NCBI GenBank assembly: GCA_015075405.1
Contig: JABTUK010000005.1
Location: 620,001 to 684,000, forward strand
Length of the DNA stretch: 64,000 nt
Reading direction: 5' to 3'
From: Anaerolineales bacterium
Lineage (GTDB): Bacteria > Chloroflexota > Anaerolineae > 4572-78 > J111
The translations under genes and the position numbers were made by a program. Below, piece after piece: positions 8,923 through 45,643 of the stretch. Position 1 is the first letter of the stretch; each line of letters begins with the position of its first letter. Under the pieces are notes generated by a model. The model ran no database searches. It worked only from the letters and a program-made list of their open reading frames with translations, and was not told where the DNA came from.

Positions 8923-11646
8923 ATGCGGGCCGAAAATTTGCGAACTGAATATGGCAATATCATTCTGACCCAACAAACGCTCACCGCGCCGCCCGATCCG
9001 ATTGAGCAGCTCCGCCTCTATCGAGCCTGGGTTATTAGCCAATATCGCAAATTACCGCTCATCAAGCTAGACCCGCAACCCGGCCGGAGCAGCGACGGCA
9101 TTACGCTGGGTGATCTTTACATCGGCCTCAATGTGAAAGATACGCCCCTGGCGGTAACTTTGGAGGGACAGCCCGGCCAGGCCAATGCGGCCCTGGCCTA
9201 CGCCGACCGCTGGTCGCGCCTGGTGGTTAAAGGCGACCCCGGTTCCGGCAAATCCACCTTGCTCAAATTTTTGGCCGTCTACCTGGCTCAGGCCGGCCTG
9301 CAGCCCGATGGCGATTGGCCAGAGCGGTTACGCTGGCCGGTTTATCCTCGGGCCAATCAGCGCGAGTTTTTGGGACGCGACCAAGCTGAAAAGCTGCTGG
9401 GCTACGCCGCCTGGCGCAATCCCGCCCTGACCCCGGTCTTTATCACCCTGCGCGATTTTGCGGCGGCCACGTTTAACCCCAAAGACCCGCTGGCCCTGTG
9501 GCGCTTTTTTGAAAGCTACCTGGCCCAACAAGCCCTGGCCGAAGCCGCGCCGGCCGTGTTTGATAAGCTGCGCCGGGGTGAGGGTATCTTTCTGTTCGAC
9601 GGCGTAGATGAAGTGCCGCTGGGCCAACGCCCCCAGGTATGGCGCGCTCTGGCGGCCCTGCGCGATGGCCCCCTGGCCGACTGCCGCTGGATTGCTACCT
9701 GCCGCGTTCTTTCTTATAACGAAAGTGAGGCCGCTCCGGCCGCCCCCGCCCAGGTGGTCGAACTGGCCCGCTTGAGTAAGGACCAGATTGAAACGTTTGT
9801 TGAACTGTGGTACGCCGCCTTGCAGCGTGAAGGCGAAATTGAACCGGCCCTGCTGCCCGGCCGGGCCGCTCGCCTGCGCCGGGCGGCCACCGGCAAGCTG
9901 CGCCCCCTGGCCGAAAACCCCATGCTGCTGACCATTATGGCCCTGGTTGACCGCAGCCAGGCCACCCTGCCCGAAGAGCGGGTGCGCCTCTACCTGGCCT
10001 GCGTCGAAACGCTCCTGTTCCGCTGGCAGCGCCACAAAGAAAACGTGGAAGATGAACTGCCTTTGGAATTAACCGCTTTGGGCTTGAAGCCGGATACGCT
10101 CAAAGCCCTGCTGGCTGAAATTGCCTGGCAGGCCCACCAAAAAGACCGATCAACCGGCTCTCGCGCCGAAGCCGCCGCCGATATTCCGGCCGGGCTGGCC
10201 CTGGCCCTGGCCGAAAAGCACCTGGGCAGCCACGAGAAAGCGCACCTCTTTTTGAACTATACCGAGCAGCGGGCGCACCTGCTGATTGGCCGGGGCGGGC
10301 AAACGGAGTGGCAATACACCTTCCCTCACCGCACCTTTCAAGAGTACCTGGCCGCCCGCCATTTGCTGAGCCAGGCCGATCTGGGCGAGCAAGCCGGCCG
10401 TCTGGCCGAACGGGGCGATTACTGGCGAACGGTGCTGCTGCTGGCCGCCGAAGAACTGGTTCACAACGGCGGCCCGGCCGGGCCAAACACCCTGCTGCGC
10501 GAGTTGAGAGACATCCTGCCTTCTGCTCAACCGGCGCCGGGCGATGTTCCCGGCTGGCAGCGCGTCTGGCGGGCCGGCGAAATGTTGGCCGCGCTGGGGC
10601 CAGAGCGGGCCAGCGCCAGTGAGCGCGGCCAGGCCCTGCTCAAACGCCTGCAAACTGATTTGGCCGCCCTCCTGACCAACGGCGAATTGACTCCACCGGA
10701 ACGGGCCGAAGCCGGGCAGGCGTTGGCCCTGCTGGGCGATTTCCGCCCCGGCGTCAATCTGAATCCCCCTCTCCCGGGGGGAGAGGGGTTAGGGGAGAGA
10801 GCTTGGCCCGATATCCTCTGGCGCAGTGTGCCCGCCGGTGAATTTATTATGGGCGACGACGAAGGAGATGAGCAGTACGGAGAAAAACCGGCCCATCGAG
10901 TTAATTTGCCCGCCTTTCAAATTAGCCAATTTCCCATTACGAATATACAATTCAGCGCCTTTGTTAAAGATGGTGGTTACCAAAATGAAGCCTACTGGCC
11001 GGAAGCTAAAAAAGAGGGCTACTGGCAGACAGGCCAATTTCGGGGAAGATTTGATAATGAGGGACGTGACCGGCCCTACGATTTTGGCTCCCCTTACAAC
11101 CTGCCCAACCACCCGGTCGTTGGGGTCAGTTGGTACGAAGCGGTGGCTTTTTGCCGGTGGTTGAGTGACAAATTAGGCCGCCTGGTGCGCCTGCCGACCG
11201 AGGCCGAGTGGGAGAAAGCGGCGCGGGGTCCTGTATCGGAAGACCTGTCAGGTTTTGAAAACCTGACAGGTCTGGTTGGACGCAAATACCCCTGGGGCAA
11301 TGAGGAAGAAACTGCCGCCCGCTGCAATATGCGCGATACCGGCATCAATGCCACCAGCGCCGTCGGTATGTTCCCTGATGGAGCCAGCCCTGGTTACGGG
11401 GTGATGGACATGAGCGGCAACGTCTGGGAGTGGTGCAGCACCATCTGGAACGAAGAGGCATATCCGTTTAAGGTTCAGGACGAGTGGACAGAGGCTTATC
11501 TGGATAGAACAAATGTTCACCGTGTCTTGCGCGGCGGCGCTTTCTTCTATGGAGCCTACTCTGTGCGCTGCGCGGCTCGCTACAGGAACTTCCCGGACGA
11601 CGGGAACGACAACTACGGTTTTCGGGTTGTTCTCCCCCCCAAGTAG
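8923..11646 (+). CDS. NACHT ATPase with C-terminal FGE-sulfatase domain: DGR variable target protein
   Basis: 907 residues. An N-terminal region of ~95 residues of unknown fold precedes a NACHT-type STAND ATPase: Walker A GDPGSGKST (104-112), Walker B IFLFDGVDEV (222-231) and a sensor-like WIATCR (256-261). A helical middle follows to about 620. The C-terminal domain from about 630 is a formylglycine-generating-enzyme / sulfatase-modifying-factor fold (GEFIMGDDEGDEQYGEKPAHRV, RLPTEAEWEKAARG, YGVMDMSGNVWEWCS), a C-type-lectin-like fold. Its last 41 codons (866-906) are the DGR variable repeat. Known DGR targets commonly end in this fold, and STAND ATPases sense ligands and oligomerise. I infer a sensor whose ligand-binding face is rewritten by the retroelement. 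A palindromic insertion (11241-11273) adds 11 codons in the FGE domain and a GC-rich palindrome near 10765 another short stretch. It is the first large gene of the DGR operon. Confidence 0.93.
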   Translation: MRAENLRTEYGNIILTQQTLTAPPDPIEQLRLYRAWVISQYRKLPLIKLDPQPGRSSDGITLGDLYIGLNVKDTPLAVTLEGQPGQANAALAYADRWSRLVVKGDPGSGKSTLLKFLAVYLAQAGLQPDGDWPERLRWPVYPRANQREFLGRDQAEKLLGYAAWRNPALTPVFITLRDFAAATFNPKDPLALWRFFESYLAQQALAEAAPAVFDKLRRGEGIFLFDGVDEVPLGQRPQVWRALAALRDGPLADCRWIATCRVLSYNESEAAPAAPAQVVELARLSKDQIETFVELWYAALQREGEIEPALLPGRAARLRRAATGKLRPLAENPMLLTIMALVDRSQATLPEERVRLYLACVETLLFRWQRHKENVEDELPLELTALGLKPDTLKALLAEIAWQAHQKDRSTGSRAEAAADIPAGLALALAEKHLGSHEKAHLFLNYTEQRAHLLIGRGGQTEWQYTFPHRTFQEYLAARHLLSQADLGEQAGRLAERGDYWRTVLLLAAEELVHNGGPAGPNTLLRELRDILPSAQPAPGDVPGWQRVWRAGEMLAALGPERASASERGQALLKRLQTDLAALLTNGELTPPERAEAGQALALLGDFRPGVNLNPPLPGGEGLGERAWPDILWRSVPAGEFIMGDDEGDEQYGEKPAHRVNLPAFQISQFPITNIQFSAFVKDGGYQNEAYWPEAKKEGYWQTGQFRGRFDNEGRDRPYDFGSPYNLPNHPVVGVSWYEAVAFCRWLSDKLGRLVRLPTEAEWEKAARGPVSEDLSGFENLTGLVGRKYPWGNEEETAARCNMRDTGINATSAVGMFPDGASPGYGVMDMSGNVWEWCSTIWNEEAYPFKVQDEWTEAYLDRTNVHRVLRGGAFFYGAYSVRCAARYRNFPDDGNDNYGFRVVLPPK
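11241..11273. repeat. In-frame 33-bp palindrome inside the FGE domain
   Basis: AGACCTGTCAGGTTTT and AAAACCTGACAGGTCT are exact complements around one base. It encodes DLSGFENLTGL between WEKAARG and KYPWGNE, motifs that are normally close together in FGE folds, so it is an insertion that preserves the frame. A relative with the same core lies at 27696-27729. Confidence 0.85.
11517..11642 (+). repeat. DGR variable repeat (VR)
   Basis: Aligns without gaps to the template repeat 13319-13444 (offset 1802). There are 16 mismatches in 126 positions and all lie at template adenines: nine A to T, five A to G, two A to C. None of the other template bases is changed. The changes affect 13 codons (875-877, 879, 880, 887, 890, 892-894, 896, 898, 906) and always at codon positions 1 or 2. 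The invariant 3' part GGTTTTCGGGTTGTTCTC is the likely initiation-of-mutagenic-homing region. Confidence 0.97.
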
Positions 11647-11815
11647 TTGGAGAATCTGGCCTCTGTTTTCTCTGGCCTCTGACCCCCTCCCCCTCTCAGG
11701 GGGAGGGTTGGGGAGGGGGTGGGGTTTTGTCTTTACAAAAAATGGTCAAGAGAAGATGCTTGTATTTAATCCTCTGGAATCCCGCGTCAGCGGGTCGCCG
11801 CAAAATTTTAAAAAA

Positions 11816-12871
11816 ATGACCCTCTACGATCAGATTACCAGTTGGGATAACTTACGTTTAGCCTATAAAAAGGCGGCCAAAGGCAAGCGCGGCAAAGGCC
11901 CGGCGGCCCGGTTTGAATACCGGCTGGAAGATAATCTGGCCGCTTTGCAGCGGGAGCTGCTAAACAAAAGCTATCAACCCGGCCAGTATGCCAGCTTTTA
12001 CATCCACGAACCGAAGCGGCGGCTGATTTCGGCGGCGCCGTTTCGGGATCGAGTAGTTCATCACGCGCTGTGCAACCTCATTGAGCCAATCTTTGAGCGC
12101 AGCTTTATCGAAGACAGCTACGCCAACCGCGTCGGCAAGGGCACGCATCGCGCTTTGGATCGCTGCCAAACTTTTGCCCGGCGTTTTCCTTATGTTTTAA
12201 CCTGTGATTTAAAACAATACTTTCCGAGCATTGACCATCAAATTCTGCGTCGCATCCTGGCCCGCAAAATTAACTGCCTGGATACCCTCTGGCTCATTGA
12301 TGGGATTTTAGCCAGCGGCATCGGGGTATTGGCCGAAGAATATGAAATGGTCTGGTTTCCGGACGATGATTTGCTGGCGGCAACGCGGCCGCGTGGTTTA
12401 CCCATTGGCAATTTGACCTCGCAGTTCTGGGCCAACTGTTATCTCAACGATTTCGATCATTTTGTCAAGCGCATCTTGCGCTGCCGGGGTTATGTCCGCT
12501 TTGTGGATGATTTTTTGCTCTTTGCCGCGGATAAAGCTACTCTCAGGCAGTGGCGGGAGTCAGTAACCGGATACTTGGCCCAATTGCGTTTGACCTTGCA
12601 TTTGAACAAGGCGCAAATTCGCCCGGTGTCTGAGGGTATTCCTTTTTTGGGCTTTGTCGTTTATCCGCAGCGCCGGCGGGTCAAGGGGCGTAAGGTGGTT
12701 CATTTTCGGCGGCGGTTGCGTCAGCGGCTGGCCGACTATCGGGCGCGACGCATCTCGCTGGATCAGGTAGACTCTTCGGTGCAGGGATGGGTTAATCACG
12801 TGCGTTATGGCAATACGGTGGCATTGCGTCGAGTCACATTTGACAGCTTGCCGATTGTTGCGCCGGGGTGA
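11816..12871 (+). CDS. DGR reverse transcriptase
   Basis: Open from 11513, but that frame overlaps the variable repeat with low-complexity sequence, so I start at the ATG at 11816 (MTLYDQITSWDNLRLAYKKA, 351 aa); an ATG at 11756 is also possible. The palm domain shows CDLKQYFPSIDH (first catalytic Asp), the DGR-type IGxxxSQ motif in LPIGNLTSQFWANCYLNDFD, and the catalytic box YVRFVDDFLLF. The enzyme copies the template RNA with errors at adenines and the cDNA replaces the variable repeat. Its length and the IGNLTSQ signature separate it from group II intron enzymes. The avd gene follows after 9 bp, suggesting one transcript. Confidence 0.95.
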   Translation: MTLYDQITSWDNLRLAYKKAAKGKRGKGPAARFEYRLEDNLAALQRELLNKSYQPGQYASFYIHEPKRRLISAAPFRDRVVHHALCNLIEPIFERSFIEDSYANRVGKGTHRALDRCQTFARRFPYVLTCDLKQYFPSIDHQILRRILARKINCLDTLWLIDGILASGIGVLAEEYEMVWFPDDDLLAATRPRGLPIGNLTSQFWANCYLNDFDHFVKRILRCRGYVRFVDDFLLFAADKATLRQWRESVTGYLAQLRLTLHLNKAQIRPVSEGIPFLGFVVYPQRRRVKGRKVVHFRRRLRQRLADYRARRISLDQVDSSVQGWVNHVRYGNTVALRRVTFDSLPIVAPG

Positions 12872-12880
12872 GGTATTTTC

Positions 12881-13267
12881 ATGGCCTCAGAAATGGTCAT
12901 TTTTACCCGCACTTATGATTTTATCAGTTGGCTGATCCCCCGGCTGGAGAGCTTTCCCCGCAGCCAACGTTTTGGCGTCACCAGGCGGCTGCAAGACGCT
13001 GCCCTGGACTTCTATGAGACCATCACGGTGGCCAACAACAGTCGGGGTGAAGAGCGGCGGCAGTTGCTGCGTCGGGCCGATAGTCACCTGGACAAAGTGC
13101 GTTTTTATCTTCGTCTGGCCGTACAGTGGGCCTGGCTCAACGAAGGCCAATACCAACATGCCGCGCAGATGGTGGCTGAAATTGGCCGACTTTTGGGCGG
13201 CTGGCGGAAAAATCCAGATGGTAGCGATAGAGCTGAAGGATCCCCCAGGGCCTTCGGCTCTGCCTAA
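12881..13267 (+). CDS. avd: Avd-like four-helix-bundle accessory variability determinant
   Basis: 128 residues with a helical pattern of basic and aromatic residues: FTRTYDFISWLIPRLESFPR, VTRRLQDAALDFYETITVA, RRQLLRRADSHLDKVRFYLR and ALEW-like WAWLNEGQYQHAAQM. This is the four-helix-bundle layout of Avd, which forms a basic pentamer that binds the reverse transcriptase and template RNA and is required for mutagenic homing. It lies 9 bp after the RT gene and 52 bp before the template repeat. The last ~20 residues (PDGSDRAEGSPRAFGSA) are low complexity and probably not conserved. Confidence 0.9.
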   Translation: MASEMVIFTRTYDFISWLIPRLESFPRSQRFGVTRRLQDAALDFYETITVANNSRGEERRQLLRRADSHLDKVRFYLRLAVQWAWLNEGQYQHAAQMVAEIGRLLGGWRKNPDGSDRAEGSPRAFGSA

Positions 13268-13318
13268 AATATGACAACTCGCGCCGTTTGGCGTTAGAGT
13301 TGTGGGGCCAGGCCGAGG

Positions 13319-13444
13319 TCACCGTGTCTTGCGCGGCGGCGCTTTCAACAATGAAGCCAACAATGTGCGCTGCGCGGCTCGCAACAGGAACAACCCGAAC
13401 AACAGGAACAACAACAACGGTTTTCGGGTTGTTCTCCCCCACAA
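13319..13444 (+). repeat. DGR template repeat (TR)
   Basis: 126 bp copy of the variable repeat, rich in AAC/AAT triplets (13 Asn codons when read in the target frame). It contains 34 adenines, 16 of which differ in the variable repeat. AAY codons can mutate at their two adenines without ever giving a stop codon, the usual DGR template design. It lies downstream of avd and in the same orientation as the target gene. An open frame through it is not a real gene. Confidence 0.97.
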
Positions 13445-13572
13445 TTTTCAGCAAGGTCTAGGGTTGGCAATGTGGTGTGGCTACGGCTGCGCCGCCGAAA
13501 TCTTAGAAAATTGGCGGGCCTGCGCCCTGGCCGCGCCCTAAACTATTTCGCAGGGCCGGGCGAATATCAACC

Positions 13573-14084: not shown

Positions 14085-17000
14085 ATGCCAACCGACGACT
14101 GCTCCAAAAGCACCAAACCTGCCGGCTTGCCGCCCAAGCAGGGATTGTATGACCCCCAATTTGAACACGATGCCTGTGGCGTCGGCTTTGTGGTTAACAT
14201 CAAAGGCCACAAATCGCACCAGCTTGTCCAGCAGGGCTTGACCATTCTGCGGCATTTAACTCACCGTGGCGCGTGCGGCGCCGAACCCAATACCGGCGAT
14301 GGGGCCGGTATTTTGCTGCAAATGCCCGATGCGTTTTTGCGCCAGGTCTGCGCCGAGTTAAATATTACTCTGCCCGCGCCCGGTTGGTACGGCGTGGGCA
14401 TGGTCTTCGCCCCGGTGGATGAGGCCGCCCGCCGCGCCTGCGAAGCGCGTTTTGACCAGATTGTGGCCGCAGAAGGGCAGCAGGTGCTCGGCTGGCGTAC
14501 CATCCCCACCGACAACAGTTCGCTGGGCCAGACAGCGCTGCTGGCCGAGCCGGTCATGCGCCAGGTCTTTATCGGGCGGGGGGAGGGCCTGGCGGACGAG
14601 ATGGCCTTTGAGCGCAAGCTGTACGTCATCCGCAAACGGGCCGAGCAAGAAATTCGTTATGGCGGCTTTCCGGGCGGGGCGTCGTTTTATATCTCCAGCC
14701 TGTCTTATAAAACGCTGATCTACAAAGGCATGCTCATGTCGGAGCAGGTCGAGGCGTACTATCCCGACCTGTCCAACCCGGCGATGGAGACCGCCCTGGC
14801 GGTGGTCCACTCCCGCTTCAGTACCAACACCTTCCCCAGTTGGGAGCGCGCTCACCCCTACCGCTACCTGATCCACAATGGCGAAATCAACACCCTGCGT
14901 GGCAATGTCAACTGGCTCTACGCCCAGCAGACCCGCTTCCAATCCAAACTTTTTGGCGATGACCTGCCCAAAATCCTGCCGGTCATCAACCCCGATGGCA
15001 GTGACTCGGCCATGTTCGACAACTGCCTGGAGTTCCTGGTGCTGGCCGGTCGCTCTCTGCCCCACGCGGTCATGCTGATGATCCCCGAACCCTGGTCCAA
15101 GCACGAAAGCATGAGCGACGAAAAGCGGGCCTTTTACGAATATCACAGCACCCTGATGGAGCCGTGGGACGGCCCCGCCTCCATCGGCTTTACCGACGGT
15201 ATCCGCGTCGGCGCGGTGCTGGACCGCAACGGCCTGCGCCCTTCCCGCTACTACGTGACCAAAGATGATTTGGTGATTATGGCCTCGGAGGTGGGTGTGC
15301 TCGACGTTCCGCCGGAGCAGGTGCTCTACAAAGGCCGGCTCGAACCGGGCCGCATGTTCCTGGTGGATACCGAACAGGGCCGGATCATCAGCGACGAGGA
15401 GCTAAAACAGCAGATGGCCACCGCCCAGCCCTACCGGGAATGGCTGAACAAGTTTCTGGTCAAGCTGGAAGACCTGCCGAGTCCGGGGATTAGTAGTCAG
15501 AAGTCAGTAGTCAGTAATCAGAATGGTCACTCAACCCCGGTCTCCGGTCTCCCGTCTCCGGTCAATGGGAACGGGGCGCACGCGAGTCTCGCAGGCCATG
15601 AAAACCTGACCCAGTTGCAGCAGGCCTTTGGCTACACCTTTGAGGATTTACGCATGCTCCTGGTCCCGATGGGTAAAGACGGGGTTGAGGCCCTGGGTTC
15701 GATGGGCAACGACGCGGCGCTGGCGGTGCTGTCGGAGCGGCCGCAACTGCTTTACAACTACTTCAAGCAGCTTTTTGCCCAGGTAACAAACCCGCCGATT
15801 GACGCCATCCGCGAAGAGTTGATTACCGCCACCGAGGTCATGATCGGCTCGGAGCAAAACCTGTTAGAGCCGCGCCCGGAAAACTGCCGCCAGATCAAAC
15901 TCAAGCACCCCATCCTGACCAATGAAGAGCTGGCTAAACTGCGCTACATCAGCCTGCCCGATTTCAAAGCCGTCACCCTGCCGATTTTGTTCAAAGCGGC
16001 TGATGGAGCGGCGGGCCTGGAGCGGGCGCTGGAAGAGTTGTACCGCCAGGCTGACCAGATCCTGGCCGCTAACGAGGCCAATATCCTGATTCTGTCCGAC
16101 CGGGGCGTTGACCAGGAAAATGCCCCCATCCCGGCGCTACTGGCCGTGTCGGGGCTGCACCATCACCTCATCCGCGAGGGGACGCGCACGCACGCCGGCC
16201 TGGTGCTGGAATCGGGCGAGCCGCGCGAGGTTCACCACTTTGCTACCCTGCTGGGCTATGGCGTCACCGCCATCAATCCCTACCTGGCCTACGAGACGCT
16301 CGGCCAGATGATAGAAGAAGGACTGCTGCCCGGCGTCACCCCGGCCGAAGCGGCCAAAAATTACGTCAAGGCGGTGGTCAAAGGGGTGGTTAAAGTGATG
16401 TCCAAAATGGGCATCTCGACCATCCAGAGCTACTGCGGGGCGCAGATTTTTGAGGCGTTGGGCTTGAGCCAGGAGTTTGTAGATCGCTATTTCACCTGGA
16501 CGCCCTCGCGGATTGGCGGCGTCGGCCTCGACGTGATTGCCGCCGAAGCTCAGGCCCGCCACAGCCACGCCTTCCCGGAGCGACAGGTCAATGGCCGCAC
16601 CCTGGCCGTCGGCGGCCATTACCAGTGGCGGCAAGACGGCGAGCATCACCTGTTCAACCCGCAGACCATTCACCTGCTCCAGCAGGCCTGCCGCACCAAC
16701 AATTACAAGATTTTCCAGAAATACGCCGAGCTGATCAACGACCAGTCGAAGCAGTTAGCCACCCTGCGCGGCCTGCTGGACTTTAAGTTTGCCGCCGAAC
16801 CGATTCCCCTGGAAGAGGTCGAATCGGTCGAGTCCATCTGCCGCCGCTTCAAAACCGGGGCCATGTCCTACGGCTCGATCAGTCAGGAGGCCCACGAAAG
16901 CCTGGCCATTGCCATGAACCGCCTCGGCGGCAAGAGCAACACCGGCGAAGGCGGCGAAGACCCGGCCCGTTACGAACTGGACGAAAACGGCGACTCGCGC

Positions 17001-18803
17001 AACAGCGCCATCAAACAGGTCGCTTCGGGCCGTTTTGGCGTGACCAGTAACTACCTGGTCAATGCCCAGGAGCTGCAAATCAAGATGGCCCAGGGGGCCA
17101 AACCCGGCGAAGGCGGCCAACTGCCGGGCCGCAAGGTTTACCCCTGGATTGCCAAAGTGCGCCACTCGACGCCCGGCGTGGGCTTGATTTCGCCGCCGCC
17201 GCACCACGATATTTACTCTATCGAAGATTTGGCCGAGCTGATCCACGACCTCAAAAATGCCAACTCGCGGGCGCGGATCAACGTCAAGCTGGTTTCGGAG
17301 GTGGGGGTGGGCACGATTGCCGCCGGGGTGGCCAAAGGTCACGCCGATGTGGTGCTGATCAGCGGCCACGACGGCGGCACCGGCGCGTCGCCCCAGACCA
17401 GCATCAAGCATGCCGGCCTGCCCTGGGAACTGGGCCTGGCCGAAACCCACCAAACCCTGGTGCTGAACAACCTGCGCAGCCGGATTGTGGTCGAAACCGA
17501 CGGCCAGCTCAAAACAGGCCGCGATGTGGTCATCGCCGCGCTGCTGGGGGCAGAGGAGTTTGGCTTTGCCACCGCGCCGCTGGTGGCGCTGGGCTGCGTG
17601 ATGATGCGGGTCTGCCATCTGGATACCTGTCCGGTCGGCGTGGCGACCCAGAACCCGGAACTGCGCAAAAAGTTTACCGGCGACCCGGCCCACGTGGTCA
17701 ACTTTATGCGTTTTATCGCCCAGGAAATGCGCGAATGGATGGCCAAACTCGGCTTCCGCACCGTTGACGAGATGGTGGGCCGCACCGACCGGCTGGAAGT
17801 GAATGAGGCGGTGGCGCATTGGAAGGCCAAAGGACTCGATTTTTCCAGCATCCTCTACCAGCCTGATGTGCCGCCCGAAGTGGGCCGCACCTGCCAGATG
17901 GCCCAGGATCATGGGCTGGATAAAGCGCTTGACAATCAAGTGCTGCTGGATTTGTGCCGCCCAGCTTTGGAAGACGGCGAGCCGGTGGCGGCGACCCTGC
18001 CGATTCGCAATCTCAACCGGGTGGTGGGAACTATCCTGGGCAGCGAAGTAACCCGGCGTTACGGCCCGGACGGCCTGCCCGAAGATACCATCCGGCTGCG
18101 CTTTATCGGCTCGGCGGGCCAGAGCTTTGGGGCGTTTATTCCCCGTGGCCTGACCCTGGCCCTGGAAGGCGATGCCAATGATTACTTTGGCAAGGGCCTA
18201 TCAGGCGGTAAGCTTATTGTTTACCCGCCCGAAGGGTCAACTTTTGCAGCCGAAGAAAATATCATTATCGGCAATGTGGCTTTTTATGGGGCCACCAGCG
18301 GCGAGGCGTACATTCGCGGGGTGGCCGGGGAGCGTTTCTGCGTCAGGAACAGCGGTGTTCATGCGGTGGTGGAAGGCGTGGGCGATCACGGCTGCGAGTA
18401 TATGACCGGCGGGCGGGTGGTGGTGCTGGGCCGCACCGGGCGCAACTTTGCCGCCGGCATGTCGGGCGGTATTGCTTACGTGCTGGATGAGGCCGGCGAT
18501 TTTCCGCGCCATTGCAACCAGGAGATGATTGAGTTGGAACGGCTGGAAGACGCGGCTGAAATCGTCGAGGTCAAAGCGATGATCCAGCGCCATCTTGACT
18601 ACACCAACAGCGCCCTGGCCGAGCGGGTTCTGGCTCGCTGGGACAAGTTGGCCCCCAAGTTCGTCAAGGTCATGCCCAAGGATTACAAGCGCGTGCTGGC
18701 CGCCTTCCGCGAAGTCGAAGCCGCCGGTTTGAGCGGCGAAGAGGCAGTTATGGCCGCCTTTGAGCAAAACAAAAATGACCAGGCCCGCGTGAGCGGAAAT
18801 TAA
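14085..18803 (+). CDS. gltB: Glutamate synthase large subunit (first copy)
   Basis: 1572 residues. Converts glutamine and 2-oxoglutarate to two glutamates. RBS AAGGAG precedes the ATG. After a ~30-residue propeptide, HDACGVGF supplies the N-terminal nucleophile Cys31 of the class II glutamine amidotransferase domain (to about 430). The central and FMN-binding synthase domains follow ([31 protein letters not shown]-like region HDGGTGASP). The 3Fe-4S cysteines are C1171, C1177 and C1182 in [12 protein letters not shown]. The GXGXG domain ([11 protein letters not shown]) ends the protein. About 40 residues near 465-505 come from heptamer repeats inserted in the interdomain linker. gltD follows after 91 bp, so together they should form NAD(P)H-dependent synthase. 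Confidence 0.97.
15484..15590. repeat. In-frame heptamer-repeat insertion in gltB copy 1
   Basis: Tandem AGTCAGT/AGTAATC-type units followed by CCGGTCTCC units add a Ser/Gly/Asn-rich linker in the protein. Similar words occur in intergenic hairpins elsewhere in the window. Confidence 0.7.
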
Positions 18804-20599: not shown

Positions 20600-20721
20600 A
20601 TGGCCCATTCGGGTGATGACATAAGCCCCAAAATCAATTAAAATCTCACAACATTATTTTTATTCTATCCATTAAACCCCAAACCGGCGCCGCCGTGACG
20701 TGGCCCGGCGCGGGGTGTTTT
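20600..20721 (+). promoter_or_regulatory. Conserved glt leader, copy B (upstream of second gltB)
   Basis: CCCATTCGGGTGATGACA at 20604 and, 72 nt later, the hairpin ACCCC (20676-20680) with GGGGT (20712-20716), inner GCGCC/GGCGC, then GTTTTGC. It matches copy A at 13650-13766. Here the hairpin sits only 15 nt before the ribosome-binding site (AAAGGGGG) of gltB copy 2, so folding could control translation as well as termination. Confidence 0.55.
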
Positions 20722-20743
20722 GCTATCTATAAAGGGGGTAGCT

Positions 20744-23700
20744 ATGCCCGACCCATACCAGCAAACCCTATACCACCCCGAATTTGAACACGACGCCTGT
20801 GGGGTAGGTTTCATCGCCCGCACGACAGGCCGGGCGGGACACGATATTGTCCAAATGGCCCTGCAAGCCGTCGGCGCGATGAAACACCGCAGCGGTATTG
20901 ACGCCGACGGCCGCTCCGGCGACGGCGCAGGCGTGATGACTCAAATCCCGCACCGCCTCCTCTCCGCCGAAATAGCCGACCTGCCCCAACCGGGCGATTA
21001 TGCGCTGGGCATGCTCTTCTTGCCACGACCGGAGACCGGAGACCGGGGACCAGAGACAGACAGAGCAATCGAGTTGGTGGAAACAACTTTCAACCAACTG
21101 CTTGAAACTGAAAATCGTAAATCGGAAATCGGAAATCGGAAATCGAAAATCCTCTGGCGTTCCGTGCCGGTCAACTCGGCGGCCCTCGGCCCGACGGCGC
21201 AGCGAAGCTGTCCGCAGATCAAACAAGTCATCATTCCTCGCCCGGCGGAAATTGAGCGGGGCCTGGCTTTTGAGCGCTTTTTGTATACAGCCCGCAAGCG
21301 TCTCGAAGCCGCCGCGCGCCAGGCGGGTCTGGCTGATTTTTATGTCGTTTCACTTTCGGCCACTACGGTGGTCTACAAAGGCTTGATGCTCTCGCCCTAC
21401 CTGGCCGATTTTTATCTGGATTTAGCCAATCCCCTTTACGAAACGGCCCTGGCGACCCTGCACACTCGTTACAGCACCAATACCACCTCCAATTGGCAGC
21501 GGGCGCAGCCCTTCCGTCTGGTGGCCCACAACGGCGAAATCAATACCATTCAAGGCAACGTCAACTGGATGCGGGCCAGAGAGTCCATGCTGGACTCGCC
21601 GTTTTGGCCCGGCCACCTGGATGATTTGCGGCCCGTCATTGATCCCGCCGGCAGCGACTCGGCCATGCTGGACAATGTGCTGGAGTTGTTGGTCCACGCC
21701 GGGCGCGACATTCATCATAGCATGGCCATGTTGGCTCCCGAAGCCTGGGAAAACCTGGTTGACCTTGACCCCGACCGGCAGGCTTTCTATCGCTACCACG
21801 CCGCGCTGATGGAGCCGTGGGACGGGCCGGCGGCGGTTGTCTTTAGTGATGGCCGGCGAGTGGGCGCTACCCTTGACCGTAACGGCCTGCGCCCCATGCG
21901 TTATCTGACCACCAACACCGATCTGGTCATTGCCACCTCCGAAGCGGGCGTTGTGACCGTAGACGAAGGGACGATTGTGACCAAAGGGAAACTCGGCCCC
22001 GGCCAGATGATTTTGGTGGATTTGGAGCGGCAGCTTTTTTTGACCAACGATCAGGTTAAAAACGAGCTGGCCCGCCGCCTGCCCTACGGAGAGTGGGTCG
22101 AAGGTCTCAAACCCGTGCCCACCGAAACCCGCCCGGCCTACTTCTCGCTGGAGCCGGCCGCCTCTCGACCGTTGCCGCCCAAAGTCAATACGACCCATCA
22201 ATGGCTGGCGCGGTTGCAGGCCGCTTTTGGCTATACCCACGAAGAGCTGATTGTGCTGGTGCGGCCCATGGCCGACGAGGGCAAAGAACCGACCGGCTCG
22301 ATGGGCGATGACACGCCTCTGGCGGTGATGTCGCCGCGGGCCAGGCCGCTGTTCCATTACTTCAAGCAGCGCTTTGCTCAAGTGACCAATCCACCGATTG
22401 ACCCGCTGCGCGAAACCTTTGTCATGTCGCTGACCATCCGCCTGGGGGCGCATCCCAATTTGTTGGAGGAGACCCCCAAACACGCTCACCTGGTCGAACT
22501 GGCCAGCCCGGTGCTAAGCGACGCCGATTTGGTAGCTTTGAAAAGTCTGGGCGACCCGCGCTTTGCCCACCACACCATCGCCATGCGCTACCCGGTGGCC
22601 CAGCGCGCCGACGGCCTGCGCCGGGCGCTCGACCGGTTGGGCAAAATGGCCGAAGACGCCATTGACGCGGGCAAAACCATCCTGATTCTGAGCGATTTAG
22701 GCATCAACGAGCAGTACGCGCCGATTCCCAGCCTGTTAGCCGTTGGAGCGGTTCACCATCATCTGGTGCGGCGCGGCAAGCGCATGCAGGTCAGTTTGGT
22801 GGTCGAGAGCGGCGAGGCGCGCGAAGTCCATCACCTGGCCTGTCTGATTGGTTACGGGGCCAACGCCGTCAATCCTTACCTGGCCCTGGCTTCGGTGGAA
22901 GATTTGGTGACGGCGGGCAAAGTCAAGCTGGAGGTGGCCGAGGCTAAACTCAATTTTGTGCGGGCGCTGGAAGCCGGGCTACTTAAAATTATGTCCAAAA
23001 TGGGCATCTCAACCGTAGATAGCTACTGCGGGGCGCAGATTTTTGAGGCAGTCGGCCTGGGCCAGCCCTTGATTGACGAATTTTTCACTGGCACGGTCTC
23101 TCGGCTGGGCGGGATTGGCCTGCCGGAGATTGCCGCCGAGGTCCAGCGCTGGCATCGCGCCGGCTTTGCCGACCCACAGCGGCCCGAAATCCAAAGTCCC
23201 GGCTTTTATAAATACAAGCGCGAGGGTGAAACCCACGCCTACGATCCGGCCATCGTCAAAGCCTTGCAAACGGCGGTGCGGATGGAAGGGGTGTTGAGTG
23301 GGGAAGCCAGTGAACAGAGGCCAGTAATCAGTAATCAAATGTCAGTAGCCGGTAGTCAGAGGTCAGTAGCCAGTAGTCAGATATCAGAGGTCAATGGCCA
23401 CCATTATGTCAATGGAACTGCCAATGGACAACTGATAACCCATAATGGACATCCCCGGTCTTCGGTCCCCGGTCTCCGGTCGTTTCTCGGCCCTAACTTT
23501 GCCGCCGGCTACCGGGCCTACCAGGAGTTTGTCCAATTGACCCGCCAGCGCCCGGCGATTGACCCGCGCCACATGTTCGATTTTGTTTCGACCGGCCGGC
23601 CCCGGCTTGATCTGGCCGAGGTGGAACCATTGGAAGCGCTTTTTGTCCGTTTTTCCACCGGGGCGATGTCGCATGGGGCGTTGAGCAGCGAAGCGCACGA

Positions 23701-25591
23701 AACATTGGCCATTGCGCTCAACCGGCTGGGGGCGATGAGCAACAGCGGCGAGGGCGGGTCGGCCCAGGAGCGTTTTGGGACCGAAAAGAATGACCGAATT
23801 AAGCAGGTCGCTTCGGGCCGGTTTGGGGTTAGTCCTGCCTACCTGATGTCGTCGGATGAGCTGCAAATCAAAATGGGCCAGGGGGCCAAGCCCGGCGAGG
23901 GCGGCCAACTGCCCGGCAGCAAAGTGACTGCCGAGATTGCGGCCATCCGCCACACCACTGCGGGAACGACGCTGATTTCTCCGCCGCCGCACCACGATAT
24001 TTACAGCATTGAAGATTTGGCCCAACTTATTTACGATCTAAAGCAGATCAACCCGGCGGCAAAGGTTTCGGTGAAGCTGGTGGCGGAAGCCGGGGTGGGC
24101 ACGGTGGCGGCGGGTGTGGTCAAAGGCGGCGCGGACGTGGTGCATATTGCCGGGCACGCCGGCGGCACCGGCGCGGCGGCCTGGAGCAGTATCAAATGTG
24201 TCGGCTTGCCCTGGGAAGTGGGCCTGGCCGAAACTCACCAAACCCTGGTATTGAACGACCTGCGCGGGCGGGTGAAGCTGCGTACCGACGGCGGTTTGCA
24301 GACGGGCCGTGATGTGGTTATCGCTGCGATTTTGGGCGCGGACGAGTTTAGCTTTGGCACCGTCACCCTGGTGGCCGAGGGCTGTTTGCTGGCCCGCGCC
24401 TGCCACAGCAACACCTGCCCCGTCGGGGTGGCGACGCAGGATCCCAAACTGCGGGCCAAATTTGCCGGCACCCCGGAACACGTGATGGCCTATCTGCACT
24501 ACGTGGCCCAGGAAGTCCGCGAAATCCTGGCCGAGTTGGGCTTTTGCCGTCTGGACGAGGTCATTGGCCGCACCGAACTGCTGCGGCAAGTCTCCACCGG
24601 CAACGCGATGGCCGACACGTTAGACTTGTCGCCGTTGTTGGCTAAGGCAGACCGGAGACCGGAGACCGGAGACCGGGGAGGCCAAATCCAACCCTCCAAC
24701 CTTCCAACCTTCCAACCTTCCAACCTTCCAACCTTCCAACCCTCTATCACAGCCCTGGGCGACCTCAATCAACTCTTACTCCGCCAGGCCCAACCCGCCC
24801 TGGAGATCGGCGAGCCGGTGCAGTTGAACCTGCCCATTGATAGTACCGATCGCGCCGTAGGAGCTACATTGGCGGGGGCGATTGCCCAACGCTGCGGCGA
24901 CCGGGGGCTGCCGGAAGGGACGGTGCAGGTGACGTTTTTGGGCAGCGCCGGCCAGAGTTTTGGGGCATTTAATGCGCCAGGCGTCCATCTAACTCTGATT
25001 GGCGAGGCTAATGACTACGTGGGCAAGGGCATGGCCGGCGGCCAGATTGTCGTCCGGCCTTCGCTTAAGTCGCAGTTGGCGGCGGCGGATCACGTGATTA
25101 TGGGCAACACGGTCCTCTATGGGGCCATAGGCGGCAGCATGTATGTGGCCGGCCAGGCCGGCGAGCGCTTTGCCGTGCGCAACAGCGGCGCGGTGGCGGT
25201 GGTTGAAGGGGTGGGTGATCACGGCTGCGAATATATGACCGGCGGGGTGGTGGTGGTGCTGGGCCGCACCGGCTATAACTTTGGGGCCGGCATGAGCGGC
25301 GGGCTGGCTTTTGTGCTGGACGAAGGGCATCACCTCGGCCAGCGGCTCAACCCGGATATGGTCCAGTTGGTGCGCGTCACTAACGACCAGGATGCGGCGC
25401 TGCTCAAACTTTTGATTACCCGGCATGTCCGCCTGACCGGCAGCGTCCGCGGCCAGGCGATTTTGGACAATTGGACCACCCGGCTGGCCCTCTTTTGGAA
25501 GGTTGCGCCCAAAGGCACTATCGGCGCAACCGGGAAACTGCTCACCCATCTGCCGATGATGGAGGAGCTAAGCCGGCACGTGGCGGGGTAA
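20744..25591 (+). CDS. gltB: Glutamate synthase large subunit (second copy)
   Basis: 1615 residues from the ATG at 20744, chosen because AAAGGGGG lies just upstream and Cys19 (HDACGVGF) then falls at the usual position for the processed amidotransferase nucleophile; the ATG at 20720 lies in the leader. Domain order matches the first copy; 3Fe-4S cysteines are C1214, C1220, C1225 (CLLARACHSNTC), and [11 protein letters not shown] marks the GXGXG domain. The copy is well diverged from 14085-18803, so this is an old duplication or a separate acquisition. Three in-frame repeat insertions (near 21029, 23305 and 24648) make it longer than usual. It may pair with the single GltD or use ferredoxin; the sequence does not settle this. 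Confidence 0.95.
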   Translation: MPDPYQQTLYHPEFEHDACGVGFIARTTGRAGHDIVQMALQAVGAMKHRSGIDADGRSGDGAGVMTQIPHRLLSAEIADLPQPGDYALGMLFLPRPETGDRGPETDRAIELVETTFNQLLETENRKSEIGNRKSKILWRSVPVNSAALGPTAQRSCPQIKQVIIPRPAEIERGLAFERFLYTARKRLEAAARQAGLADFYVVSLSATTVVYKGLMLSPYLADFYLDLANPLYETALATLHTRYSTNTTSNWQRAQPFRLVAHNGEINTIQGNVNWMRARESMLDSPFWPGHLDDLRPVIDPAGSDSAMLDNVLELLVHAGRDIHHSMAMLAPEAWENLVDLDPDRQAFYRYHAALMEPWDGPAAVVFSDGRRVGATLDRNGLRPMRYLTTNTDLVIATSEAGVVTVDEGTIVTKGKLGPGQMILVDLERQLFLTNDQVKNELARRLPYGEWVEGLKPVPTETRPAYFSLEPAASRPLPPKVNTTHQWLARLQAAFGYTHEELIVLVRPMADEGKEPTGSMGDDTPLAVMSPRARPLFHYFKQRFAQVTNPPIDPLRETFVMSLTIRLGAHPNLLEETPKHAHLVELASPVLSDADLVALKSLGDPRFAHHTIAMRYPVAQRADGLRRALDRLGKMAEDAIDAGKTILILSDLGINEQYAPIPSLLAVGAVHHHLVRRGKRMQVSLVVESGEAREVHHLACLIGYGANAVNPYLALASVEDLVTAGKVKLEVAEAKLNFVRALEAGLLKIMSKMGISTVDSYCGAQIFEAVGLGQPLIDEFFTGTVSRLGGIGLPEIAAEVQRWHRAGFADPQRPEIQSPGFYKYKREGETHAYDPAIVKALQTAVRMEGVLSGEASEQRPVISNQMSVAGSQRSVASSQISEVNGHHYVNGTANGQLITHNGHPRSSVPGLRSFLGPNFAAGYRAYQEFVQLTRQRPAIDPRHMFDFVSTGRPRLDLAEVEPLEALFVRFSTGAMSHGALSSEAHETLAIALNRLGAMSNSGEGGSAQERFGTEKNDRIKQVASGRFGVSPAYLMSSDELQIKMGQGAKPGEGGQLPGSKVTAEIAAIRHTTAGTTLISPPPHHDIYSIEDLAQLIYDLKQINPAAKVSVKLVAEAGVGTVAAGVVKGGADVVHIAGHAGGTGAAAWSSIKCVGLPWEVGLAETHQTLVLNDLRGRVKLRTDGGLQTGRDVVIAAILGADEFSFGTVTLVAEGCLLARACHSNTCPVGVATQDPKLRAKFAGTPEHVMAYLHYVAQEVREILAELGFCRLDEVIGRTELLRQVSTGNAMADTLDLSPLLAKADRRPETGDRGGQIQPSNLPTFQPSNLPTFQPSITALGDLNQLLLRQAQPALEIGEPVQLNLPIDSTDRAVGATLAGAIAQRCGDRGLPEGTVQVTFLGSAGQSFGAFNAPGVHLTLIGEANDYVGKGMAGGQIVVRPSLKSQLAAADHVIMGNTVLYGAIGGSMYVAGQAGERFAVRNSGAVAVVEGVGDHGCEYMTGGVVVVLGRTGYNFGAGMSGGLAFVLDEGHHLGQRLNPDMVQLVRVTNDQDAALLKLLITRHVRLTGSVRGQAILDNWTTRLALFWKVAPKGTIGATGKLLTHLPMMEELSRHVAG
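21029..21153. repeat. In-frame heptamer insertions in gltB copy 2, site 1
   Basis: CGGAGAC units (21029-21055) and AATCGGA units (21116-21150) encode polar low-complexity loops within the amidotransferase domain (RPETGDRGPETD, ENRKSEIGNRKS). Confidence 0.75.
23305..23482. repeat. In-frame heptamer insertion in gltB copy 2, site 2
   Basis: Tandem AGTAGTC/CAGTAAT/AGAGGTC-type units then GGTCTCC units encode about 55 residues of Ser/Gln/Val/Asn-rich sequence between the central and FMN domains. Confidence 0.75.
24648..24742. repeat. In-frame repeat insertion in gltB copy 2, site 3
   Basis: CGGAGAC heptamers followed by about six CCAACCTT octamers, read as repeated NLPTFQPS residues, placed between the FMN and GXGXG domains. 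Confidence 0.8.
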
Positions 25592-43935: not shown

Positions 43936-44359
43936 TTTCATTTAGCCCCCTGGGTCTGGTTGGTCAGGTAGTTCTCCAGGCCCATCTGCTTAATCTGCGT
44001 CCGCTGCTTCTCTGCCCAATCGCCATGCCCCTCTTCCATCTTGAGAATATCAGTCAGCAAGTCGGCGGTGGCCTGATCGTCCACCTCATGCGCCAGGCGG
44101 ATGGCGGCATTGTAGGCCCGTGCTGCCGCCAGCTCGGCCTCCTGATCATGGCCGATCATTTCTAACACGGTCTGGCCGATTTGGATCGGGTTGAGCTTGG
44201 AGACGACCGGCGCACCTTCCAGGAAGATGATCCGTTGAATGAGCCACTCGGCATGGCGCATCTCGTCGCGCGCTTGCTGCTCAATGACTTGGTGAAGTTT
44301 ATCGTAGCCCCAATTGTCGCACATCTCTGAGTGGACCATATATTGGCTGATGGCAGTTA

Positions 44360-45514
44360 TACTGGAAACGGGTTAAAACTGGACTTTTTTGACGTGATCA
44401 ATAATATCCTCAAGTAGTCTGAAGGCTATGTATCGGCCAATGATAGGGAGCGGAAAGTGATCACGATAGAATTTAGTCCAGCCGACATCGAAGCTTTGGA
44501 ATACGAACGGTATCGTCATCCTCACCCCAAAGTTCAAAAGAAAATGGAAGCGGTGTACTTGAAAAGTCAGGATGTTAAACCCGGCCAAATTTGTCGGCTC
44601 TGCCGTATCTGCAAAACGACCCTGACAACCTATTTGGATCAGTACCAAGCTGGTGGCTTAGAACGGCTCAAAGAACTGGAGTATCAGGTCAACCCAGTGA
44701 ATTGAACCAACACAGCACTACCCTGGAAGCCTACTTTAAGGAACACCCACCCGCAGCACCGCCGAAGCCCAAGCTGCAATTGAAAAACTGACCGGTCTCA
44801 AACGCAATCCGACCCAGGTTCAAGCCTTTATGAAGCGTTTAGGACTAAAATGCCGCAAAGTGGGCTTTGTGCCCGGGCGAGCGACGGATCCGGACAAACA
44901 GGCCGAGCAGGAAAGCTTCCGGGTCAATCTGTTGGAGCCGCGCCTACAGCAAGCCCAGGCTGGACAACGAGTGGTTTTGTTTATGGATGCCGCCCACTTT
45001 GTCTACGGCGTCTTCTTGGGCCTGGTTTGGTGTTTTGTCCGCTTGTTTATGCCCTCGCCCGCAGGTCGCAAGCGGTTCAATGTCTTGGGGCCCATTAACG
45101 CTGTGACCAAAGAAGTCTTGACCGTGACTAATGAAACCTATATCAATGCCGAAAGCGTCTGTTTGTTGCTGTCCGACATTGCCCAACGCTATGGACCCAT
45201 TCCGATCACCCTGGTCTTGGACAATGCCCGTTATCAAAAGTGTGCTTTGGTTTTGGATCACGCCGCCTCCTTGAAGATCGAATTGTTGTTTTTACCCGCC
45301 TATTCGCCTCAGTTGAACTTGATCGAACGCTTGTGGCGTTTTGTGCGTAAAGAGTGTTTGTACTCCAAGTATTATGCCGATTTCGCCACTTTCAAACAGG
45401 CCATTGCCACTTGTATTGAAACCGCCCACACTGAGCATCGAGAAGAACTGGACACCCTGTTGGCCTGGAACTTTCAGTCTTTCAAAAAAGTCCAATTCTT
45501 ACCCGTTTAGAGTA
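44360..45514 (+). mobile_element. IS630-family insertion in bfr
   Basis: 1155-bp element flanked by a TA duplication (44358-44359 and 45515-45516). The 33-bp inverted ends share AAACGGGT and TGGACTTTTTTGA and differ at five positions. Preference for TA targets is typical of IS630/Tc1. Confidence 0.93.
44457..45510 (+). pseudogene. IS630-type DDE transposase with two frameshifts
   Basis: The N-terminal helix-turn-helix part (44457-44705: FSPADIEALEYERYRHPHPKV) runs into a second frame (near 44690-44760, PSELNQHSTTLEAYFKEHPP) and then a third (from ~44750, TAEAQAAIEKLTGLKRNPTQV) before 45510. The last part carries the catalytic residues: Asp in VLFMDAAHFVYG, Asp in LVLDNARYQ and Glu in LNLIERLWRF. 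Two shifts suggest a mutated copy, although one may be programmed. A transposase of another copy could still mobilise it. Confidence 0.8.
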
Positions 45515-45643
45515 TAGCTCATCCGCCAGGAGTTGGTTTAGCACCGTCAATAGCTTTTCGTTGCCTTTCATTGTTCGTTCCTTTTCTATATTCTTGGATC
45601 AAGAAACTCACCTAACCGTATCTTACGGCGATATTCTCCGGGA

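Follow-up and report, generated by a model that had tools for sequence, protein, structure and literature searches.

The TA-specific cut-and-paste mechanism is already known from ISY100 of Synechocystis, which, according to the part of its description considered here (PMC2170065), inserts almost only at TA, duplicates this dinucleotide, moves by cut and paste and has inverted repeats of 24 bp. The inverted repeats of the element described in this work are about 33 bp long inside the element, and the comparison with ISY100 is based on this description. In a plasmid collection the best matches of the transposase are Acaryochloris elements, at about 60% identity. Among them is the nearest named element found, ISAcma14 of Acaryochloris marina, whose transposase and that of the intact copy are 60.5% identical in amino acids over 99% of the latter. 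The present element is distinct from ISAcma14 by sequence, and the transposase frame of the copy studied is broken. The interrupted gene belongs to the same family model as the bacterioferritin (Bfr) of E. coli (TIGR00754, PDB 1bcf), but is split by the element. In the literature on bacterioferritin and insertion sequences or Chloroflexi, searched by title and abstract opening, no such insertion was found in this group. The element is of a known kind and its insertion into this accessory gene is nothing unusual; such events are well known and only the instance is new. It settles no open question; its value lies in showing cleanly how an insertion sequence that has recently multiplied can disable an accessory gene for iron storage.

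Insertion of an IS630-family element into bfr

The window, that is the whole stretch of 64,000 nucleotides analysed, carries an IS630-family insertion sequence of 1155 bp on the plus strand (44360-45514), which separates codon 19 from codon 20 of a bacterioferritin gene (bfr) on the minus strand. Its boundaries are common to six genomic copies, and its assignment follows from the IS630 transposase model. The flank table of the six copies places one copy of the TA target on the left (44358-44359) and one on the right (45515-45516), in agreement with the TA duplication at both junctions reported in the first-pass annotation. The element ends in an imperfect inverted repeat, detected as one pair of 38-nt arms with 84% complementarity (44355-44392 and 45482-45519). 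On each side the outer five bases of these arms are the TA and three flanking bases, and the paired end motif supports terminal repeats at 44360-44392 and 45482-45514.

When the flanks are joined in silico (43938-44359 to 45517-45571, one TA dropped), a frame of 477 bases without any gap is obtained, encoding 158 residues and a stop. The earlier statement that removal of 44360-45514 and one TA restores an exact frame of 158 residues thus holds to the base. The 5' part of the gene (45515-45571, minus strand) encodes residues 1-19, starts with an ATG at 45571 and ends in the target TA, as read from the minus-strand translation and the joined flanks; the matches of relatives also start at residue 1. 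The 3' part (43938-44357, minus strand), defined by the open reading frame list, the joined flanks and the relatives, encodes residues 20-158 and the stop, its 139 codons being open up to the junction. Its first ATG is internal, at 44339, and there the ORF caller starts a protein of 133 amino acids, the misplaced start that had been pointed out before. This is a warning for automatic annotation, which would place the start of a shortened bfr here. Together, the restored frame, the TA duplication, the IS630 transposase model and the Pfam domain bear out the original proposal of an IS630 insertion disrupting bfr.

Sister copies and age of the element

The 8.98-Mb genome, which judging from named relatives belongs to Chloroflexota, class Anaerolineae, contains six full-length copies of the element including that of the window, the other five being 99% identical. 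Since these six full-length matches, at about 99% identity or more, are all flanked by TA on both sides and have different flanks, the insertion site is not due to chance. A search with a 16-base end pattern allowing at most one mismatch found paired ends at seven places (14 sites) and one lone site; at two mismatches ten more sites appeared, against ten over all mismatch classes for the backwards control. The seventh copy, on contig C2 (G000:C2:1872417-1872929), is internally deleted and is covered by two matches that lie side by side (query 1-191 and 833-1159). This IS630 derivative keeps both ends and is possibly non-autonomous.

Seven peptides from the flanks of four other full copies (L005, L006, L007 and L009) were scanned, and three of the seven had no match at E 0.01, including the one peptide tested for L006. 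L005 is flanked by a histidine phosphatase, L007 by a D12-type adenine methyltransferase (21.3 bits, slightly below the Pfam cut-off of 22) and L009 on either side by parts of an FGE-sulfatase domain, the smaller of which scored 20.6 bits, under the cut-off of 23.3. Several reading frames thus seem to have been hit by this element, as would be expected from its need for nothing more than TA.

The suggestion that the insertion may be recent gains indirect support from the near-identical sister copies, from Bfr fragments free of further stops or frame shifts and from the absence of the element in 80 of 80 named relatives. Judged from such comparisons, the element has probably multiplied recently in this genome and the insertion is probably recent too. 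The window copy is not the youngest-looking one: compared with the intact copy L005 it has four substitutions and has lost two single bases, a G and a C, from base runs, and these two losses split its transposase frame. Element DNA outside its own genome reached at best 68% identity (G054); with at most four candidates scored per genome, matches were present in six of the 100 genomes, its own included, and none of those elsewhere was near-identical.

We consider it nearly certain that an IS630-type element, apparently multiplied recently in this genome, inserted at a TA and split bfr, which would very probably make the gene a pseudogene, and that other ferritins can explain why this is tolerated. 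In mechanistic terms, a cut-and-paste element of the IS630/Tc1-mariner type would have inserted at the TA between codons 19 and 20, and the loss of bfr would be tolerated through redundancy, as the genome still has a non-haem ferritin and a small protein related to Bfr. A mixed population is one alternative: many cells would still have an intact bfr although the consensus displays the occupied site. The genome is listed at 6.38% contamination in 7 contigs, and a multicopy element with near-identical copies may still be moving; both junctions are clean, however, and show the TA duplication that a genuine insertion would leave, and the assembly holds no second allele of this bfr, so that we regard a mixed population as unlikely.

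The two pieces of bacterioferritin

The joined protein scored 149.2 bits against TIGR00754 (cut-off 125.55) over residues 1-153, and over the same residues it matches solved Bfr chains including that of E. coli. Positions 18, 25, 51, 52, 54, 94, 127 and 130, which we take to be haem or ferroxidase ligands of E. coli Bfr or their neighbours, with Met52 as the haem ligand, read EYEMHEEH in the joined frame. All eight are thus intact, and the same residues are found at these positions in 77 of 80 named relatives. Glu18, presumably a ferroxidase residue, is located on the 5' piece, and as the split falls directly after residue 19, it is separated from the rest of the four-helix bundle. In the occupied state the minus-strand frame encodes 19 Bfr residues followed by ten foreign residues and a stop. 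The products would therefore be limited to a stub of 29 residues and a piece shortened at its N-terminus, which is without most of helix A and has neither Glu18 nor Tyr25; for this reason the interrupted bfr is very probably a pseudogene that would have lost its function.

It might be supposed that the truncated product of 133 residues is still made and useful, the gene being reshaped rather than destroyed, since the 3' part is open and has no further stops or frame shifts. Such a product, however, would lack residues 1-25, including position 18 (E in all 80 named relatives) and position 25 (Y in 78 of them); alone it scores 115.4 bits, under the TIGR00754 cut-off, and no promoter-like site at the end of the element points into the 3' part. 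We hold this to be very improbable. An outward promoter at the element end driving truncated bfr was also rejected, as the whole stretch searched contains one site (minus strand, 45395-45368) against 1.3 expected from shuffles.

Empty site and distribution of bfr in relatives

A contig scan found 193 relatives, of which the best 80 were used for comparison of the site. All 80 run continuously through residues 15-60 in one segment, and their identity is at most 89%. An insertion common to relatives was not seen: the same-genus genome (G001) is without a close bfr, and all 80 of these named relatives are uninterrupted. As G001 is the only same-genus genome among those compared, the empty site is deduced from homologues of no more than 89% identity. 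We give scarcely any credence to the idea that the element serves as a switch of bfr, strain-variable or reversible, with empty and occupied alleles coexisting under changing iron or oxygen supply.

Among 100 genomes including its own, 63 have a match of some kind, and 19 of the 100 contain 20 full-length places which are at least 54% identical and extend without a break from residue 1 to residue 154 or beyond. One of these 20, in G071, has an internal TGA. In one relative, an additional bfr copy (G044:C944:1093-1425) is matched at residues 1-52 and 90-154 but not between them, which looks like a deletion of the central part. Within the family, the 11 remaining genomes show no match above 32% identity, so none of them holds this bfr; in G001 the best match is 29% identical and lies elsewhere in the genome. 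On these matches, the bfr of the window appears to be a patchily distributed accessory gene. Its six best relatives are from Chloroflexi (89% and 82%), KSB1 (81%), Gemmatimonadetes (80%), Dadabacteria (80%) and Caldilineaceae (80%), a spread over phyla which suggests that bfr may have moved horizontally.

G001 keeps parts of the neighbouring cluster of the window without bfr, namely the histidine kinase and response regulator, YtxH, Transgly_assoc and the gene for a 162-aa protein. Either bfr was lost in G001 or it was gained in the lineage of the window. Elsewhere, 12 of 112 loci combine a bfr with matches to one or more further genes of the window cluster, in some of them a weak response-regulator match only; in this count at least one contig is included twice (L061 and L158). 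It thus appears that bfr is part of a stress-type gene neighbourhood of changing composition. Much of the two-component and stress cluster occurs twice in G001 with matching identities (G001:C1:944000-961000 and G001:C8:394000-405000), once near a contig end, which is either a duplication or an assembly repeat.

Remaining ferritins

A search of its own genome for ferritin domains gave three places: the interrupted bfr, a non-haem ferritin of 175 amino acids (G000:C2:931914-932321) and a small Bfr-related protein of 141 amino acids (G000:C5:208713-209108). The closest solved chain to the 175-aa protein is 'Probable bacterioferritin BfrB | Ferritin BfrB' (6.6e-39), and its best NCBIfam match is a non-haem ferritin model, under the cut-off of that model. 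For the 141-aa protein the nearest matches are a 'Sigma B operon' chain and a bacterioferritin of 139 amino acids. Neither of the two remaining proteins passes TIGR00754, their scores being 19.6 and 35.7 bits against 125.55. The second copy of bfr that had been envisaged is thus not found in this genome, which has two other ferritin-type genes instead. At least one ferritin-domain gene is present in 11 of the 12 genomes of the family, its own included. As the non-haem ferritin is retained, complete loss of iron storage is unlikely; altered iron storage is possible and would probably be buffered by the other ferritins.

The transposase

The transposase coding region lies antisense to bfr on the plus strand (44457-45510), as defined by alignment with the intact 351-aa copy, and two open reading frames remain in it (44457-44705 and 44830-45510). 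L005, located on contig C1, has a single uninterrupted frame of 351 amino acids. Against the NCBIfam IS630 model NF033545 (cut-off 100) the L005 transposase scored 179.8 bits and the 226-aa ORF of the window 119.4, and the intact copy scored 91.1 bits for the Pfam domain DDE_3 (PF13358, cut-off 28.6). The window copy has no intact transposase frame, which bears on its autonomy and not on its family. Each of the other four full copies has small indels of its own, many of them in base runs, and across copies indels are at least as frequent as substitutions, again often in base runs. This pattern looks like that of long-read errors in repeated elements, and the assembly was probably made from long reads, judging from its seven contigs. 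The frame shifts of the window copy may be either real decay or long-read error; in a probable long-read assembly, multicopy elements with small indels can look as if their transposases were dead. Programmed frameshifting is known in some families of insertion sequences, but that it accounts for the two frame shifts of the window copy is hardly conceivable and was rejected, given the open 351-aa frame of a sister copy and the small indels, many in base runs, that are specific to each of the other copies.

Other loci of the window

Two further features of the window were recorded. One is a pair of full genes for the glutamate synthase large subunit (14085-18803 and 20720-25591) within 12 kb, each with four Pfam domains of the enzyme. 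The other is a canonical diversity-generating retroelement (8923-13541). Its target is a protein with NACHT and FGE domains (8923-11646), the 3' end of whose gene (11517-11642) is the variable repeat of the template at 13319-13444; a reverse transcriptase ORF ends at 12871, and a bAvd protein is encoded at 12881-13267. All 16 differences between variable repeat and template are at template adenines.
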